Assembly: GCA_021850325.1 (NCBI GenBank) | Contig: JAJZMF010000010.1 | Coordinates: 1-64,000 of the forward strand | Direction: 5' to 3' | From: Actinomycetes bacterium | GTDB taxonomy: Bacteria > Actinomycetota > Acidimicrobiia > Acidimicrobiales > Palsa-688 | DNA: 64,000 nucleotides | In this document: positions 39,873 to 46,580 of the stretch, piece after piece | Position numbering within the stretch: position 1 is the stretch's first letter | Layout of the letters: every line of letters starts with the position of its first letter | The notes under the pieces: model-generated | What the model saw: the letters and a program-made list of their open reading frames with translations, nothing else | Databases searched by the model: none | Told to the model about the DNA's origin: nothing | Translations under genes and position numbers: made by a program

Positions 39873-41287
39873 CTCGGCACACCCGAGAGCCACCGGGCCA
39901 CCAGGTCGGGCAGGTCGCCCGCCACCAGGCCCTCGGCAAAGCCGCCCGCCGCCGCTCGCCCGTGGACATGCGCCGCCAGTCCCGCCGCCTCGAAGGCGGG
40001 GGCCCCCCGCGCCATGAAGGCCCCGATCATCCCGGCCAGGACGTCACCCGTGCCGGCGGTGGCCAGGCGGGGACCGCCCGTTGTGGCTATCAACGCCCTC
40101 CCGTCGGGAGCAGCGACCACGGTGGTCGAGCCCTTGAAGAGGACCACGGCGCCGCTCCGGGCCGCCGCCCGGCGCGCCTCTCCCAACCGGTCGGGGCCAG
40201 GCGTCCTGCCGAGGAGCCGCGAGAGCTCGCCCAGGTGCGGTGTTACCACGGTAGGTGCACTGCGGCGGGCCACCACCGAAGCCAGGTTGTCAAGTGAGCC
40301 AAAGGCGTTGAGGCCGTCGGCGTCCACGACCGCAGGCACACCGGCGCCCAAGAGCAGGCGGGCCACCTCGCCCCCGGCCTGCTCGCCCCCGGCCTGCTCA
40401 CCCCCGGCCCGCTCTCCCCCGGCCAGAGCGCCCAGGCCCGGGCCCACCACGAGGGCCCGGAAGCGCCCGAGCCCGGCCAGCACGGGGGCATGCCAGCCCG
40501 AGGCGGGCACCGGGAGGTGCACCAGCTCGCCCGGCGGGAGGGCGCCCGGGAGCACGCCCGGCATGGACAGGCGGACATAGCCGGCACCGGAACGCATCGC
40601 TGCCCTGCTCACCAGCCAGGGGGCCCCGGTCATGCCGGGGGAGCCGGCCACGACCTGCACCGCGCTCTGCCACTTGTGCGCTTCACGCGGACGCCCGGGT
40701 AAAAGCCGTGCCACATCGGCGTCCTCCAAGGCCCAGCACGTAGCGGCCCGGGAGGCCAACCCGTCGAGGCCGATGCCCGCCAGGGTGACCTCGCCGGCCA
40801 GCTCAGGCCCCCGTCCGAGCAGGAGCCCGGGCTTGAGCGCGGCGAAGGTCACCGTCGCCACCGCGCTGAGGGCCCCTCCGTCGGGTGGGACCTCGCCGGT
40901 CAGGCCGTCCAGGCCCGAGGGGATGTCGACCGCCAGCGTCCTGCAGCTCACAGAGGGGGGGAGGTAGGCACGGCGCAGGCCCGTGCCATAGGCGGCATCG
41001 ACGACCAGGTCGGCCGCGCCGAGCTCCTCGCCCGCGCCGAGCTCGCCTGCGGCCCGTACCACGACATCGGCCCCCCGGGCGGCGAGAAGCTCGGCTGCCA
41101 CCCGGCCGTCGGCACCGTTGTTGCCTCGTCCGGCCACCACCACCACCCGGCGGCGGAACGCTCCCCCCATGAGCTCCACAGCCCGGGCGGCCACAGCAGC
41201 ACCCGCTCTGCCGATGAGCACTTCCGCCGGCTCCGGAGCGCTGCGGTCCAGCGCCGCCATCTCCTCGGGGGGGACAACAGGGATCAC
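39869..41287 (-). CDS. nnrD: Bifunctional NAD(P)H-hydrate epimerase/ADP-dependent dehydratase
   Basis: 472 residues. It repairs hydrated NAD(P)H. The N-terminal YjeF epimerase domain has GRGNNGADGRVAAELL and the acidic LVVDAAYGTGL. The C-terminal ribokinase-like dehydratase has TGGPRLATAGTGDVLAGMIG. GTG 41287 overlaps the acpS stop (GTGA) and begins MIPVVPPEEM. A 15-bp tandem repeat adds AGGEQ units inside the dehydratase domain, in a likely surface loop. Confidence 0.94.
   Translation of the reverse strand: MIPVVPPEEMAALDRSAPEPAEVLIGRAGAAVAARAVELMGGAFRRRVVVVAGRGNNGADGRVAAELLAARGADVVVRAAGELGAGEELGAADLVVDAAYGTGLRRAYLPPSVSCRTLAVDIPSGLDGLTGEVPPDGGALSAVATVTFAALKPGLLLGRGPELAGEVTLAGIGLDGLASRAATCWALEDADVARLLPGRPREAHKWQSAVQVVAGSPGMTGAPWLVSRAAMRSGAGYVRLSMPGVLPGALPPGELVHLPVPASGWHAPVLAGLGRFRALVVGPGLGALAGGERAGGEQAGGEQAGGEVARLLLGAGVPAVVDADGLNAFGSLDNLASVVARRSAPTVVTPHLGELSRLLGRTPGPDRLGEARRAAARSGAVVLFKGSTTVVAAPDGRALIATTGGPRLATAGTGDVLAGMIGAFMARGAPAFEAAGLAAHVHGRAAAGGFAEGLVAGDLPDLVARWLSGVPR
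40368..40427 (-). repeat. 15-bp tandem repeat inside nnrD
   Basis: Four imperfect in-frame copies of tcgcccccggcctgc encode repeated AGGEQ units (ERAGGEQAGGEQAGGEV). They are flanked by conserved domain sequence and so probably form a tolerated loop. Confidence 0.75.
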
Positions 41288-41673
41288 GACAATGCCAACA
41301 CGACGGCGGCGGCCATGGTTGCAGTATGGGTCAGCGAGACCAGCCACGACCCCACGAGCCGTTCGGCCGCGAGGGCCCCGGCGTCCCCCGACAACGCCAG
41401 CTCCGGGGCCCCCCCGGGCAACCGCCGGACCTCAACGTCCCGGAAAGCGAACCTCCCCAGGCCGACGCCGAGCGCCTTCATGACGGCCTCTTTGGCCGCG
41501 AAGCGGGCCGCCAGGGAGGGTACGGGGTCGGCCAGGCTTGCCGCGTACCCCTGCTCGGCCTCGGTGAACAACCTGTGGTACATGGAAGGACGACGGCCGA
41601 GCACGGTCCGGAAGCGGGCGATGTCCACCATGTCCACTCCCAGGCCCACAGGGGTGGGGCGGGTCACGGCCAC
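41284..41673 (-). CDS. acpS: Holo-ACP synthase
   Basis: 129 residues. It transfers phosphopantetheine from CoA to acyl carrier protein. Motifs: LGVDMVDIARF with the Mg-binding Asp, and RFAAKEAVMKALG with Glu and Lys. GTG 41673 lies 4 nt after the glmS stop; later in-frame GTGs are possible starts. Its stop overlaps nnrD. Confidence 0.93.
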   Translation of the reverse strand: MAVTRPTPVGLGVDMVDIARFRTVLGRRPSMYHRLFTEAEQGYAASLADPVPSLAARFAAKEAVMKALGVGLGRFAFRDVEVRRLPGGAPELALSGDAGALAAERLVGSWLVSLTHTATMAAAVVLALS

Positions 41674-41677
41674 CCCC

Positions 41678-44600
41678 TCACGCCCCGGGTGACGCCCAGT
41701 GGCGTGCCAGCACTGCCACCGGCTCGGTGAGCAGGTCGAGCATCCCCACCCGGCCCAGGACGGTGTCGTCGAACCCGGGGCAGGCCTCCGTCACCGCATC
41801 GACCAAGGCGGCGTAACGGCCCTGGTAGCCCTCCAGGACAGCGCGGGCCACACCGGCAGGCAGGGGACCGGCGAAGCGGACATGGAGCAGGGTGATGCCT
41901 GCGACCTTGCCGTCCGGCACCTCGGGGATGATCACGCCGGTCCTGCCGTCGTAGAGGCTCTTGAACACGGTGACCTGCCTCTGCTGCGCCGCCCTGTGCT
42001 TCGTGCCCCTGAGCACGGGGTCGGTCACAGAACGTGAGACCAGGCCCTGAGCCACGCCCCCCTGGGCCAGCACCCTCAACCGGGCGCCGCTGAGCGCCGC
42101 CTGAGGCACCCCCTCGTCCGGCTCGACCCGGTAGCGCGTGTAACCGAGGACGCTGTGCACGGCAGGGGCCAGGGCGGCCAGTGAACGTAGTGCCCGGTAG
42201 CCGAGAGCTGCGCTCGACGCCCCGGCCGCCAGGGCCTGCGCCACCAGGGGTGAGCCCAGGAGCTCGTCCTCGCTGCGTGAGGTCCCCACCGTGACCGTCT
42301 TTGCCTGGTGCTTGATGGCATCGACGGGACGCGCCAGCTCGTCCACCGCCCGGCTCAGGGCGGCCAGCAGGTCGCCGGCGAGGGCATCGGGCGTGCCCAG
42401 CCTCCCCGTCTCGGCCTCGTAGCCCTCCACCGGCAACGTGCCGGTGGCATAGTGGGCCAGGGCCACCAGCCGGGCGACCGCCGAGGCGCTGAGGTGCCCG
42501 TCGTACGCCCCGGCGAGCATGCCGTCCAGGGCGGGCGCGAGCACGGACGACAGAGGCGGCCCGAGCGCCCCGGCCGGTCCTTCGCCCTCCAGGAGGGCCC
42601 GCGCCTCGCGCAGCGGCCGGGCCAGGGCGTCGATCGCCAGCGCGGCCTCGTAACCGAACAGGTGGCCCACCATCGCCGCCAGCACGAAAGCGAGCTCCGG
42701 ATGGCACTCGGGCACGCTCACCAGGTCCACGTCAGCGTCGAAGGCGCCCCGCTGGGCTTCGCTCACGATGACCACGGGAGCCGCCTTGTGCGCCTTCAGG
42801 ATGCCCACCTCCTTCACCAGGTCCGGGAGGTTGGGGCCTCCGGCGCCCGCCGCGCACACGATCACCAGCGGTTCGGCCGACAGGTCGATGTGCTTCTTGT
42901 CCTCGACGGTGTCCAGGGCGATCGCCTTGTAACAGAGCTCCGAGAGCTTTATGCGGATCTCGGCTGCCGCGACGTGGTCGGGCCCGCTGCCGGCCACCGC
43001 CCAGTTGCGCCGCGAGGGTGCGAGCAGGGCTGCCAGCCGGCCGATCTCGGCCCGCTTGGCGAGCACGGCGGACATGAGCCCAGGGAGCTCGCGCAACGCG
43101 GCAAGCACTGCCTGACGGTCGCTGCCGCGGCCCGGCGCGACCTGGGAGGCGAGGGCGGCCGCCAGAAGGTGGCCGGCCGCGACCTGGGAGTAGAAGGCCT
43201 TGGTGGAAGCCACCGACATCTCCACGTCCCGCCCGTCCGAGGTGTAGATCACCCCATCGGACTTCTGGACCAGGTCGCTCTGACGGCGGTTGACGATCGA
43301 CACCACGAAGGCGCCCCTCCCCCGGACCAGGTCCACGGCGCGGTTGGTGTCGGTGGTGGTCCCGGACTGGCTGACCGCCACCACAAGGGCCCCGGACATG
43401 TCGTCGGGCAGGCCCCTCCCGTCGGGGCCCCAGCCCGAGAGCTCGCTGGCGGGCATGCAGGTGACAGTGGCCCCGGGCAGTGCCCGGCCGATGGCGGAGG
43501 CGACCGCCCGGGCCGCCACCGCAGCCGTCCCCTGGCCGACCGTCACCACGTCGTGGATCCTCCCCGCCGCAAGAGCGGCGCGCAGGGCCGGGCCCAACGC
43601 ACCGTCGCCCAGGTGCACCGCATAGGCGCCAGGGCGGCCGACCAGCTTGCCCCTCAGGGTCTTGCGCACCGAGAGGGGCGCCTCGGAGATCTCCTTCAGC
43701 AGGAAGTGGGGGAAACCCTGGCGGTCGATGTCGCGGGTCGTCACCTCGGCCGGGCAGAGCTCCTCCCGGGCCATCGGGACCAGCGCACCGTCTCCACGGG
43801 AGACCAGGACGCCGTCCGGCTCCCCGGCCAGCGCCTGGTCCAACTGCACCAGCTGGCCCGTACCGCTGCCGTCCATGCGGAGGTAGCTTGCCGCCTCTTC
43901 GACCAGGCCGTAGGGCTCGCTCGCCACCACGAACGCGTCCTCGGCCAGGCCGACGCCCAGGCCCTGGCCGCTGCCCCTCAGGGCCAGCAGGAGGTGCCCC
44001 GGCTGGTCCGCGAGGTTGACGGCGATGCCCACCGAGCCCGCGAACCGGCGCACGGAGCGAGCAAGGGCTTCCGGGCCCGGGGCGCCGCGCTCCATGTACC
44101 GGGCGACCATCGCCGGCACGAGCTTGGCGTCGGTGGTCACCTCGGCCGGGAAGGACATCCCCTCCTCGGCAACCAGCTGGGCATGGTTGTCGATGTCGCC
44201 GTTCAGCACGCCGACGGCGTAGGGGGCCGGCCCTCCCCTGGGCCTCCCCCCGGCCTGCTCCGAGTTGAGGGGGTGCGCGTTCGGTTCGGACACCAGGCCG
44301 ACGCTGGCCCAACGGGTGTGAGCGAGCACGGTGGCCCGGACCTCGGGCGAGCGCAGCACCCTGGCGAGGAGCGGGTCGCCGGCCAGCGCCTGGCGGAGCG
44401 CCCGCACGTTGTCACCCAGTTCCCCGATCTCGGCCGCCGCCTTGTAGACCATCGAGAGGCAGTTGCCGACGCGGCGCACCGAGCCCGATGCAAAAAGCTC
44501 GTCCTCGTCCCTGCCCAGGAGAACCCGGCCTGCCTCTTCGCCCGACAGCCCGTCCAGGCCGTGGTCCCAGACCATCAGGTGCAAGCCGGCCGAATCGCGG

Positions 44601-45136
44601 CCCCGCACCTCGAGACGGTCCAACGACCTGAGCGCCACATGGCACGACCAGAGCACACCGAGAGCGGCCCGGTGCGGCACCCGTCCCAGGCCCAGGGGGC
44701 CCACCAGCTCGGCCACCGAACGGGCGGCCCCGGCACGGTCGGCGCCCAGCGCCCACAGGACGTCCCGCAAGCCGACCAGGGCGGCGTTCAGATCCTCCGG
44801 CCCCGAGCCCTGGTCGACGAGGGCTCCGTCCCCGTCCAGGGCTGCTTCGTAGCTGTCCAGGCGACGGCCGAGGTCCTCGACGAGGGCACCCAGCGCAGGG
44901 CAGAGCCAGTCGTGGGCGAGCATCGCCTCCAGCCCCGGCACCCCGCGCAGCTCCCGGTCCAGCTCGGCCAGTACAGCCGTCCCGGCCCTCACCGCCAGGT
45001 GGGCGGACGGCCCCGGCCGGCCGCTGAGGACCGCTACCAGGGGCTCCCGGGCCCTTCCGAGCAGCTCACGCAGAGCCGCCTCCGACGGCGCCGGGCGCCG
45101 GGCGGGACGGGCGAGCACGGCCGCAATGCCACACAT
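41678..45136 (-). CDS. glmS: Giant GlmS-type glutamine-fructose-6-phosphate aminotransferase
   Basis: 1152 residues against about 600 for normal GlmS. ATG 45136 gives MCGIAAV, exposing the catalytic Cys after Met removal, and TACCCT lies 8 nt upstream. The glutaminase domain continues only at residue 171 (LEVRGRDSAG), after an extra helical block of about 160 residues, and keeps HTRW (273-276), NAHP (286-289), NGD (312-314) and TTD (334-336). SIS1 has FPHFLLKEI, SQSGTTTDT (589-597) and SVASTK. SIS2 keeps Glu733 (KLSELCYK), KH at 748-749 and the sugar-binding Lys946 in QAKTVTV, where E. coli GlmS ends. About 200 further residues follow. The position beside glmM supports glucosamine-6-phosphate synthesis. 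Confidence 0.88.
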   Translation of the reverse strand: MCGIAAVLARPARRPAPSEAALRELLGRAREPLVAVLSGRPGPSAHLAVRAGTAVLAELDRELRGVPGLEAMLAHDWLCPALGALVEDLGRRLDSYEAALDGDGALVDQGSGPEDLNAALVGLRDVLWALGADRAGAARSVAELVGPLGLGRVPHRAALGVLWSCHVALRSLDRLEVRGRDSAGLHLMVWDHGLDGLSGEEAGRVLLGRDEDELFASGSVRRVGNCLSMVYKAAAEIGELGDNVRALRQALAGDPLLARVLRSPEVRATVLAHTRWASVGLVSEPNAHPLNSEQAGGRPRGGPAPYAVGVLNGDIDNHAQLVAEEGMSFPAEVTTDAKLVPAMVARYMERGAPGPEALARSVRRFAGSVGIAVNLADQPGHLLLALRGSGQGLGVGLAEDAFVVASEPYGLVEEAASYLRMDGSGTGQLVQLDQALAGEPDGVLVSRGDGALVPMAREELCPAEVTTRDIDRQGFPHFLLKEISEAPLSVRKTLRGKLVGRPGAYAVHLGDGALGPALRAALAAGRIHDVVTVGQGTAAVAARAVASAIGRALPGATVTCMPASELSGWGPDGRGLPDDMSGALVVAVSQSGTTTDTNRAVDLVRGRGAFVVSIVNRRQSDLVQKSDGVIYTSDGRDVEMSVASTKAFYSQVAAGHLLAAALASQVAPGRGSDRQAVLAALRELPGLMSAVLAKRAEIGRLAALLAPSRRNWAVAGSGPDHVAAAEIRIKLSELCYKAIALDTVEDKKHIDLSAEPLVIVCAAGAGGPNLPDLVKEVGILKAHKAAPVVIVSEAQRGAFDADVDLVSVPECHPELAFVLAAMVGHLFGYEAALAIDALARPLREARALLEGEGPAGALGPPLSSVLAPALDGMLAGAYDGHLSASAVARLVALAHYATGTLPVEGYEAETGRLGTPDALAGDLLAALSRAVDELARPVDAIKHQAKTVTVGTSRSEDELLGSPLVAQALAAGASSAALGYRALRSLAALAPAVHSVLGYTRYRVEPDEGVPQAALSGARLRVLAQGGVAQGLVSRSVTDPVLRGTKHRAAQQRQVTVFKSLYDGRTGVIIPEVPDGKVAGITLLHVRFAGPLPAGVARAVLEGYQGRYAALVDAVTEACPGFDDTVLGRVGMLDLLTEPVAVLARHWASPGA

Positions 45137-45144
45137 GCCCATGA

Positions 45145-45150
45145 AGGGTA
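45145..45150 (-). promoter_or_regulatory. Leaderless -10 (TACCCT) for glmS
   Basis: TACCCT on the minus strand ends 8 nt before ATG 45136. This supports the MCGIAAV start over the in-frame ATG 6 nt upstream. Confidence 0.45.
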
Positions 45151-45203
45151 ACGGCCCCGCAGGACCGGGACGCGGGTACCGCTCACAGCGACCCTGGGCC
45201 CGC

Positions 45204-46580
45204 TCAGCCCTGGCCGGGCCCCCCCAGGGCGCCGTGCAGAGCGGCGACGAGGAGCTCCGCCATCGCACCGGCGTGGGCCTCGGAACGCGCCTCGACCATC
45301 ACCCTCACCAGCGGCTCCGTCCCGCTCGGGCGCAGGACGACGCGCCCGTCGGCCCCCAGCTCGGCCTCCGCCCTGGCGACGGCCTCCCAGACCTGTTCGG
45401 CCGAGCCCAGTGCGTCCCTGCGGGCGACCCTCACGTTGCGCAGGACCTGGGGGAAGCGCTGCATGGCGGAGGCGGCCAGCTCGTGCAGAGGGGCACCCCG
45501 ACGACGGGCCAGGTCCGCCAGGAGGAGGCCCGAGAGCACGCCGTCCCCCGTCGTGGCCAGTGAGCGGAAGACTATGTGGCCGCTCTGCTCGCCGCCCAGG
45601 CACCAGCCGTTGGCGTCCAGGGCCTCCAGGACGTAGCGGTCACCCACGCCCACGGTGTGCACCTTGACCCCGAGGTCCTCCATGGCCCTGTGGAAGCCCA
45701 GGTTGGTCATCACGGTGACCACGACGGTCCCGCCCGCCAGCACCCCCCGCTCATGCATGTCCGCCGCGAACAGGGCCAGTATCCGGTCGCCGTCCACGAC
45801 CTGGCCGTCAGCGGACACCGCTATGACCCGGTCCGCGTCGCCGTCAAAGGCGAGCCCCAGCTCGGCCCGGTTGGCCCGTACCGCTTCCACCAGCGCCGCC
45901 GGGTCGGTCGACCCGCACCTGCGGTTGATGTTCGTACCGTCCGGGCCCCGCCCCAGGACGGCGGCCAGCTCGGCGCCCGCCGCCCGGAACACATCCGGGG
46001 CGCTGCGGTGAGCCGCTCCGTTCGCGCAGTCGAGCACGACCCGCAGCCCTGCCAGGTCCCGGCCCTCCAGGCAGCTCACGAGGCGCTCCTCGTACCGGCG
46101 CAGAGCGTCGGGGCCCGATGAGAAGCAGCCGACATCAGAGCCCCGCCGGCCCGACCCGGCCCGGGCCCCCGGCCCGGCACCGAGGATGAGCTCCAGCTCC
46201 GCCTCCAGCATCTCCTCGGTGCGGTCGGGCAGCTTCAGCCCGCCCGGGAGGAAGAACTTGATGCCGTTGTCCTCATAGGGGTTGTGCGAGGCGGAGATGA
46301 CCGCCGCTGCGGCTCCTTCGTCCGCCGCCAGGTAGGCGACAGCGGGAGTCGGCACAACGCCGAGGTCCACCACGTCCACGCCCTCGGAGGCCAGGCCGGC
46401 CGAGAGGGCGGCCTGCAGCAGGGGCCCTGACCACCGCGTGTCCCGTCCGACCAGGAAGCGGCTGCGGCCCCGGCCGGCGCTCACGAGCACACGTGCCGCG
46501 GCCCGCCCAAGGGCCAAAGCGAGCTCAGGTGTCAGCTCGTCGTTTGCGGAACCACGGATACCGTCGGTCCCGAACCTCAT
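45204..46580 (-). CDS. glmM: Phosphoglucosamine mutase
   Basis: 458 residues. It converts glucosamine-6-P to glucosamine-1-P for UDP-GlcNAc. N-terminal FGTDGIRGSAN, active phosphoserine loop ISASHNPYEDNGIKFF, Mg loop AFDGDADRVIAV, sugar loop GGEQSGHIVF and phosphate loop LRPSGTEPLVRVM are all intact. ATG 46580 has a GAGG SD. It lies 34 nt after rpsI and 67 nt before glmS, so the substrate and product enzymes are adjacent. Confidence 0.97.
   Translation of the reverse strand: MRFGTDGIRGSANDELTPELALALGRAAARVLVSAGRGRSRFLVGRDTRWSGPLLQAALSAGLASEGVDVVDLGVVPTPAVAYLAADEGAAAAVISASHNPYEDNGIKFFLPGGLKLPDRTEEMLEAELELILGAGPGARAGSGRRGSDVGCFSSGPDALRRYEERLVSCLEGRDLAGLRVVLDCANGAAHRSAPDVFRAAGAELAAVLGRGPDGTNINRRCGSTDPAALVEAVRANRAELGLAFDGDADRVIAVSADGQVVDGDRILALFAADMHERGVLAGGTVVVTVMTNLGFHRAMEDLGVKVHTVGVGDRYVLEALDANGWCLGGEQSGHIVFRSLATTGDGVLSGLLLADLARRRGAPLHELAASAMQRFPQVLRNVRVARRDALGSAEQVWEAVARAEAELGADGRVVLRPSGTEPLVRVMVEARSEAHAGAMAELLVAALHGALGGPGQG

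Follow-up and report, generated by a model that had tools for sequence, protein, structure and literature searches.

A long GlmS variant of Acidimicrobiia with five added segments and a predicted PAS-like C-terminal module

The window analysed here is the whole stretch of 64,000 nucleotides at the start of contig JAJZMF010000010.1, from a member of the actinobacterial class Acidimicrobiia. On its minus strand, between glmM and acpS, lies a gene for a GlmS of 1152 residues. The synthesis of amino sugars for the cell wall starts with GlmS, which is also a drug target and is usually regarded as having a single conserved architecture of some 600 residues. By alignment to E. coli GlmS (core of 593 aligned residues) five added segments were delimited in the long form. 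The locus is composed as follows:

41678..45136, minus strand: whole gene of the long GlmS, 1152 amino acids; ATG at 45136, stop codon at 41678-41680
45110..45136, minus strand: residues 1-9, N-terminal strand with the nucleophile Cys (MCGI); Cys in 36/36 long forms
44657..45109, minus strand: added segment 1, residues 10-160 (151 aa), predicted helical bundle, weakly conserved
44468..44569, minus strand: added segment 2, residues 190-223 (34 aa), within the glutaminase domain, from the alignment
44354..44404, minus strand: added segment 3, residues 245-261 (17 aa), within the glutaminase domain, from the alignment
43904..44353, minus strand: glutaminase core, residues 262-411 (HTRWAS, NAHP, NGD, TTD)
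42635..43741, minus strand: isomerase region, residues 466-834, two SIS domains (SQSGTTTDT, SVASTK, E733, H749)
42329..42634, minus strand: added segment 4, residues 835-936 (102 aa), helical extension ahead of the C-tail
42284..42328, minus strand: C-tail, residues 937-951 (PVDAIKHQAKTVTVG) with the catalytic Lys946; 14/15 positions invariant
41681..42283, minus strand: added segment 5, residues 952-1152 (201 aa), autonomous C-terminal domain, fold of PAS order predicted, predicted local distance difference test (pLDDT) 95
45204..46580, minus strand: glmM, upstream partner in the pathway and in the operon
41284..41673, minus strand: acpS, starting 4 bases past the glmS stop

The open reading frame of 1152 amino acids at 41678-45136 and its place between glmM and acpS had been claimed by a sequence-only reading of this DNA, and both were borne out. 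In the translation from the chosen ATG the Cys stands at position 2, i.e. residue 2 before removal of Met. Confirmed relatives in a collection-wide scan numbered at least 574, and the 80 best, with 47-67% identity, were kept. Most of these match over the full length, nearly all complete ones have about 1115-1190 amino acids, and 70 full-length relatives could be aligned end to end. A chance or frameshift product is ruled out by these relatives. Most of them start with MCG[IV]; the exceptions shown begin with VCGI or LCGI, except L007, whose record begins past the start. Four records (L012, L055, L056, L066) titled Acidobacteriota or Bifidobacterium breve contain a long gene and neighbours of Acidimicrobiia type, and their titles are probably mislabelled. 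Opposite glmS, an antisense open frame of 947 aa (42308-45151, plus strand) is most likely a by-product of the high GC content and not a gene.

The motifs named before, MCGIA, HTRW (273-276), NGD (312-314), TTD (334-336), SQSGTTTDT (589-597) and SVASTK (641-646), were all found, as were the catalytic-site residues E733, K748-H749 and K946. For a residue comparison in E. coli numbering 36 long and 17 standard forms were used. On the glutaminase side Cys1, R26, R73, W74, H86, N98, G99 and D123 are invariant in 36/36 long forms, and the sugar-phosphate and catalytic residues S347, Q348, S349, T352, K485, E488, H504 and K603 are likewise kept in all 36. The long forms share the replacements T76S, H77V/I/M, H97L/V, C300Q, S303A and E608G, and T302 is replaced by S once; S303A also occurs in 7/17 standard forms. 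E608 corresponds to G951 of the long GlmS, so that the chain does not end at VTVE and 201 residues lie beyond. Over the core, 158 of the 593 aligned residues (27%) are identical to E. coli GlmS.

Besides the five main added segments, two short stretches are additional to E. coli GlmS. The sequence-only reading had described three extra segments; all three could be confirmed, but the inserts 190-223 and 245-261 in the glutaminase domain had been overlooked. Pfam matches in the long GlmS are SIS and GATase_6. A search of the added segments against Pfam and the PDB sequence families, as had been proposed, gave no convincing match. Stand-alone copies were sought in about 300-400 genomes of the phylum; none was convincing, only weak near-threshold matches were obtained, and in these genomes long GlmS was the only protein with convincing occurrences of the added segments. 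Among the long forms the mean pairwise identity is 0.35 for the N-terminal insert, with 6 invariant residues of 151, compared with 0.56 for the C-terminal domain and 0.68 for the isomerase part. No other stretch of the protein is as conserved as the C-tail 937-951. Invariant in the C-terminal domain are R954, the R1001-equivalent region, R1035, K1046, D1063, R1065, R1107 and E1117.

In most sampled loci the order rplM-rpsI-glmM-[GlmS]-acpS-nnr-alr is kept, for standard and long forms alike. The long GlmS is the sole protein with glutaminase and SIS domains (GATase-SIS) in the window's genome, which is 95% complete. A second, standard-length glmS had been named beforehand as the finding that would speak against a GlmS lineage; it was not found in this genome. 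The long protein thus has the genomic role of a GlmS, the only one beside glmM, with exceptions among relatives in Aquihabitans sp. G128 and the metagenome-assembled genome G140. Two other strong matches to GlmS profiles in the window's genome are PurF and a NagB-II-like SIS protein of 349 aa. The latter (L002 1480-2529, contig C39) is flanked by a GntR-type regulator and a NagA-like gene, both names read off translations, in an amino-sugar catabolic cluster. Furthermore, murA exceeded its cut-off, and a glmU-like protein fell slightly short of its own. Hence, the organism needs glucosamine-6-phosphate (GlcN6P). In a search of Rfam over 36-50 kb of the window no glmS ribozyme and no other known RNA was found near the gene.

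The distribution was surveyed in 100 genomes of the class. Standard GlmS was present in 52 and the long form in 46, none had both and two had neither; 16 families are all standard, 16 are all long and none is mixed. The chance probability of zero overlap is about 5e-29 if related genomes are treated as independent. The two genomes with neither form (G050 and G091, both more than 90% complete) probably reflect assembly gaps. Outside the class, among the phylum genomes, four families (f40, f47, f67, f70) carry the long form. In f70, whose genomes lack a standard form, it is found at a different genomic position.

In a tree of the core alone the long forms cluster together with full support. The branch between them and all standard GlmS is very long and saturated, and E. 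coli GlmS is placed among the standard actinobacterial forms. This clade, the exclusion of the standard form, the shared locus and the status as sole GATase-SIS protein support the earlier claim of a GlmS lineage. The long protein is very probably the housekeeping GlmS of this organism and its relatives. Judged from sequence, genome and locus, it is highly likely to take ammonia from glutamine and to make GlcN6P from fructose-6-phosphate like a normal GlmS.

The full-length model (mean pLDDT 87, predicted template modelling score (pTM) 0.80) has E. coli GlmS and human GFAT-1 as best solved matches, with a template modelling (TM) score of 0.74 by target length for 2j6h. In the model the N-terminal insert forms a helix bundle that separates strand 1 of the glutaminase domain from its helix 1, and it looks like a scaffold or an oligomer contact. 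Residues 835-936 prolong the last SIS helix in the model and add further helices. Modelled alone, the C-terminal 201 residues reached a pLDDT of 95.3 and a pTM of 0.90. Their order, a capping helix, two strands, three helices, three strands and then helices, is the PAS order (bb-aaa-bbb), and this module is confidently predicted to be an autonomous domain. In the structure search the Mycobacterium large glutamate dehydrogenase (L-GDH180) came first (E 2.8e-3, probability 0.99), followed mostly by PAS, GAF, LOV and chemoreceptor ligand-binding domains.

In E. coli GlmS the C-tail helps to line the ammonia channel and carries the catalytic Lys. The C-terminal domain of the long form follows directly on the nearly invariant tail with Lys946. 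As the best explanation of the whole we consider, with a probability of roughly 65%, a housekeeping GlmS of a deep lineage in which a PAS-like C-terminal domain tunes the C-tail. Glutamine would give up ammonia at the N-terminal Cys, the ammonia would be channelled on to the SIS domains, and these would turn fructose-6-phosphate into GlcN6P for peptidoglycan. The added segments would enlarge the assembly. A ligand on the C-terminal domain would move or order the C-tail and in this way tune the coupling of the two sites. Metabolite control through the C-tail is plausible, and for its specific form, ligand-driven control of site coupling, we see almost even odds. As to the ligand, an end product such as uridine diphosphate N-acetylglucosamine (UDP-GlcNAc) or a metabolite of nitrogen status would be our guess.

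Several results weigh against this explanation. All fold matches of the C-terminal domain are weak, with none at E below 1e-3 and TM scores by query (TMq) of up to 0.47. The domain matched no PAS or other family in Pfam, and homology to the sensor region of L-GDH was rejected after a negative profile comparison that gave no sequence kinship. Thus, 'PAS-like' denotes a predicted fold and no family assignment. On the curated models the long GlmS scored 199 bits on TIGR01135 (glmS, 418 needed) and 210 bits on NF001484 (381 needed), and these two, both well under the cut-off, were its best matches. Both GlmS forms occur in the complete genome of Aquihabitans sp. G128, where the long one occupies the canonical slot and a standard glmS of 604 aa lies elsewhere (L034/L183, C1:1478722-1480530). 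Both forms are also present in G140, where contamination is possible. About three label changes suffice on the tree of neighbouring genes, so independent replacements are few. Together with the kinship of the genomes this indicates that the mutual exclusion is partly shared ancestry, i.e. a few replacements, each complete, rather than 98 independent draws. Finally, GlmR/YvcK, which regulates GlmS from outside in Bacillus, is absent from 15/46 long-form and 10/52 standard-form genomes (Fisher p 0.17). Its replacement by the long form was rejected as a general rule; since the regulator is not consistently lost, its role was not simply taken over by the long form.

Among the alternatives, a gene-model or assembly artefact with fusion of neighbouring frames is practically negligible. 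No support for it was found; GC-rich DNA does yield long spurious frames such as the antisense one, but 80 independent relatives of nearly always equal length, including single-contig genomes, already refute it. A GATase-SIS enzyme with another substrate, in a cell supplied with GlcN6P by reverse NagB-II activity or salvage, is very improbable. The low core identity, the very long branch, the NagB-II-like protein in the window's genome and the two genomes with both forms would fit such an enzyme, but it is opposed by the mutual exclusion with standard GlmS, the identical operon position and the retained fructose-6-phosphate site. The idea that the SIS-only protein of contig C39 generally provides GlcN6P instead was, moreover, rejected, as this protein was unseen among the listed matches of the other long-form genomes of the 100-genome sample. 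Membership in the NagB-II deaminases was not found either, the long GlmS reaching 51 bits on NF046059 (430 needed) and containing a glutaminase domain. The shared operon slot would be explained most simply by modification in place, that is, an ordinary Acidimicrobiia GlmS that gained insertions and then evolved very fast. This origin appears unlikely, because E. coli GlmS groups with the standard actinobacterial forms and all long forms stand outside, and because standard forms of the class sample scored 649-816 bits on TIGR01135 compared with 130-237 for the other long forms. Since the branch is saturated, fast evolution keeps some probability, but we favour displacement of the standard gene at its own locus by an ancient lineage over a drastically accelerated one.

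The most serious alternative, somewhat short of even odds, is a working GlmS whose added segments are mere scaffolding for a larger oligomer, for stability or for docking with GlmM or wall enzymes, with no regulatory ligand. It agrees with the poorly conserved N-terminal insert, which is purely helical in the model, and with the weakness of the PAS-like matches. The C-terminal domain, on the other hand, is well conserved and has invariant charged residues and the strand and helix order of a sensor fold, which argues against mere scaffolding. For the added modules in general the regulatory or oligomerisation role proposed by the sequence-only reading is putative.

With standard GlmS (TIGR01135/NF001484; E. 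coli 1jxa, 2j6h) the long form has in common the Cys glutaminase and two SIS domains, the catalytic residues, the slot and the modelled fold. In contrast, the standard enzyme has about 609 aa instead of 1152, lacks the five added segments, ends at VTVE and has T76, H77, H97, C300 and S303, which are replaced in the long form. Like the long form, eukaryotic GFAT-1 is a GATase-SIS enzyme larger than the bacterial one. It is feedback-inhibited by UDP-GlcNAc, which binds the isomerase domain, assisted by the interdomain linker (PMC7000685), but the added segments of the long form lie elsewhere than this site and linker. PAS-type and ACT-like domains of L-GDH180 (7JSR) were proposed as metabolite sensors (PMC8175468). 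This enzyme is the best, though weak, fold match of the C-terminal domain; it differs in the missing sequence homology, in another catalytic core and in the N-terminal position of its sensor domains. NagB-II deaminases (NF046059) share the SIS domains but have about 330-350 aa and no glutaminase domain. In the searchable literature, subscription journals aside, no description of a long GlmS was found. The long GlmS is real and, within that literature, apparently undescribed. It is best called a new, long GlmS variant with a predicted PAS-like C-terminal module, outside the curated equivalog.

In four families with only long forms (f2, f4, f7, f12) every sampled genome was without a GlmR/YvcK homologue, unlike most of the class. 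Aquihabitans sp. G128 is a natural system for the comparison of long and standard GlmS. At the window start (27-184) tandem repeats with units of 15, 18 and 54 bases were observed.

In roughly half of the families sampled from this actinobacterial class, which is abundant and little studied, an architecture of about 1150 residues replaces the standard GlmS. As the curated models score it well below the cut-off, genomes with the long form can seem to be without GlmS. In other bacteria comparable feedback is supplied by RNAs or separate proteins. A tentative and rather doubtful proposal is that the long form has built-in metabolite feedback on cell-wall entry through a PAS-like allosteric sensor connected to the catalytic C-tail, which would be the first one known in a GlmS. 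Should the C-terminal domain act as a sensor, it would become directly testable whether the ammonia channel is controlled via the C-tail.
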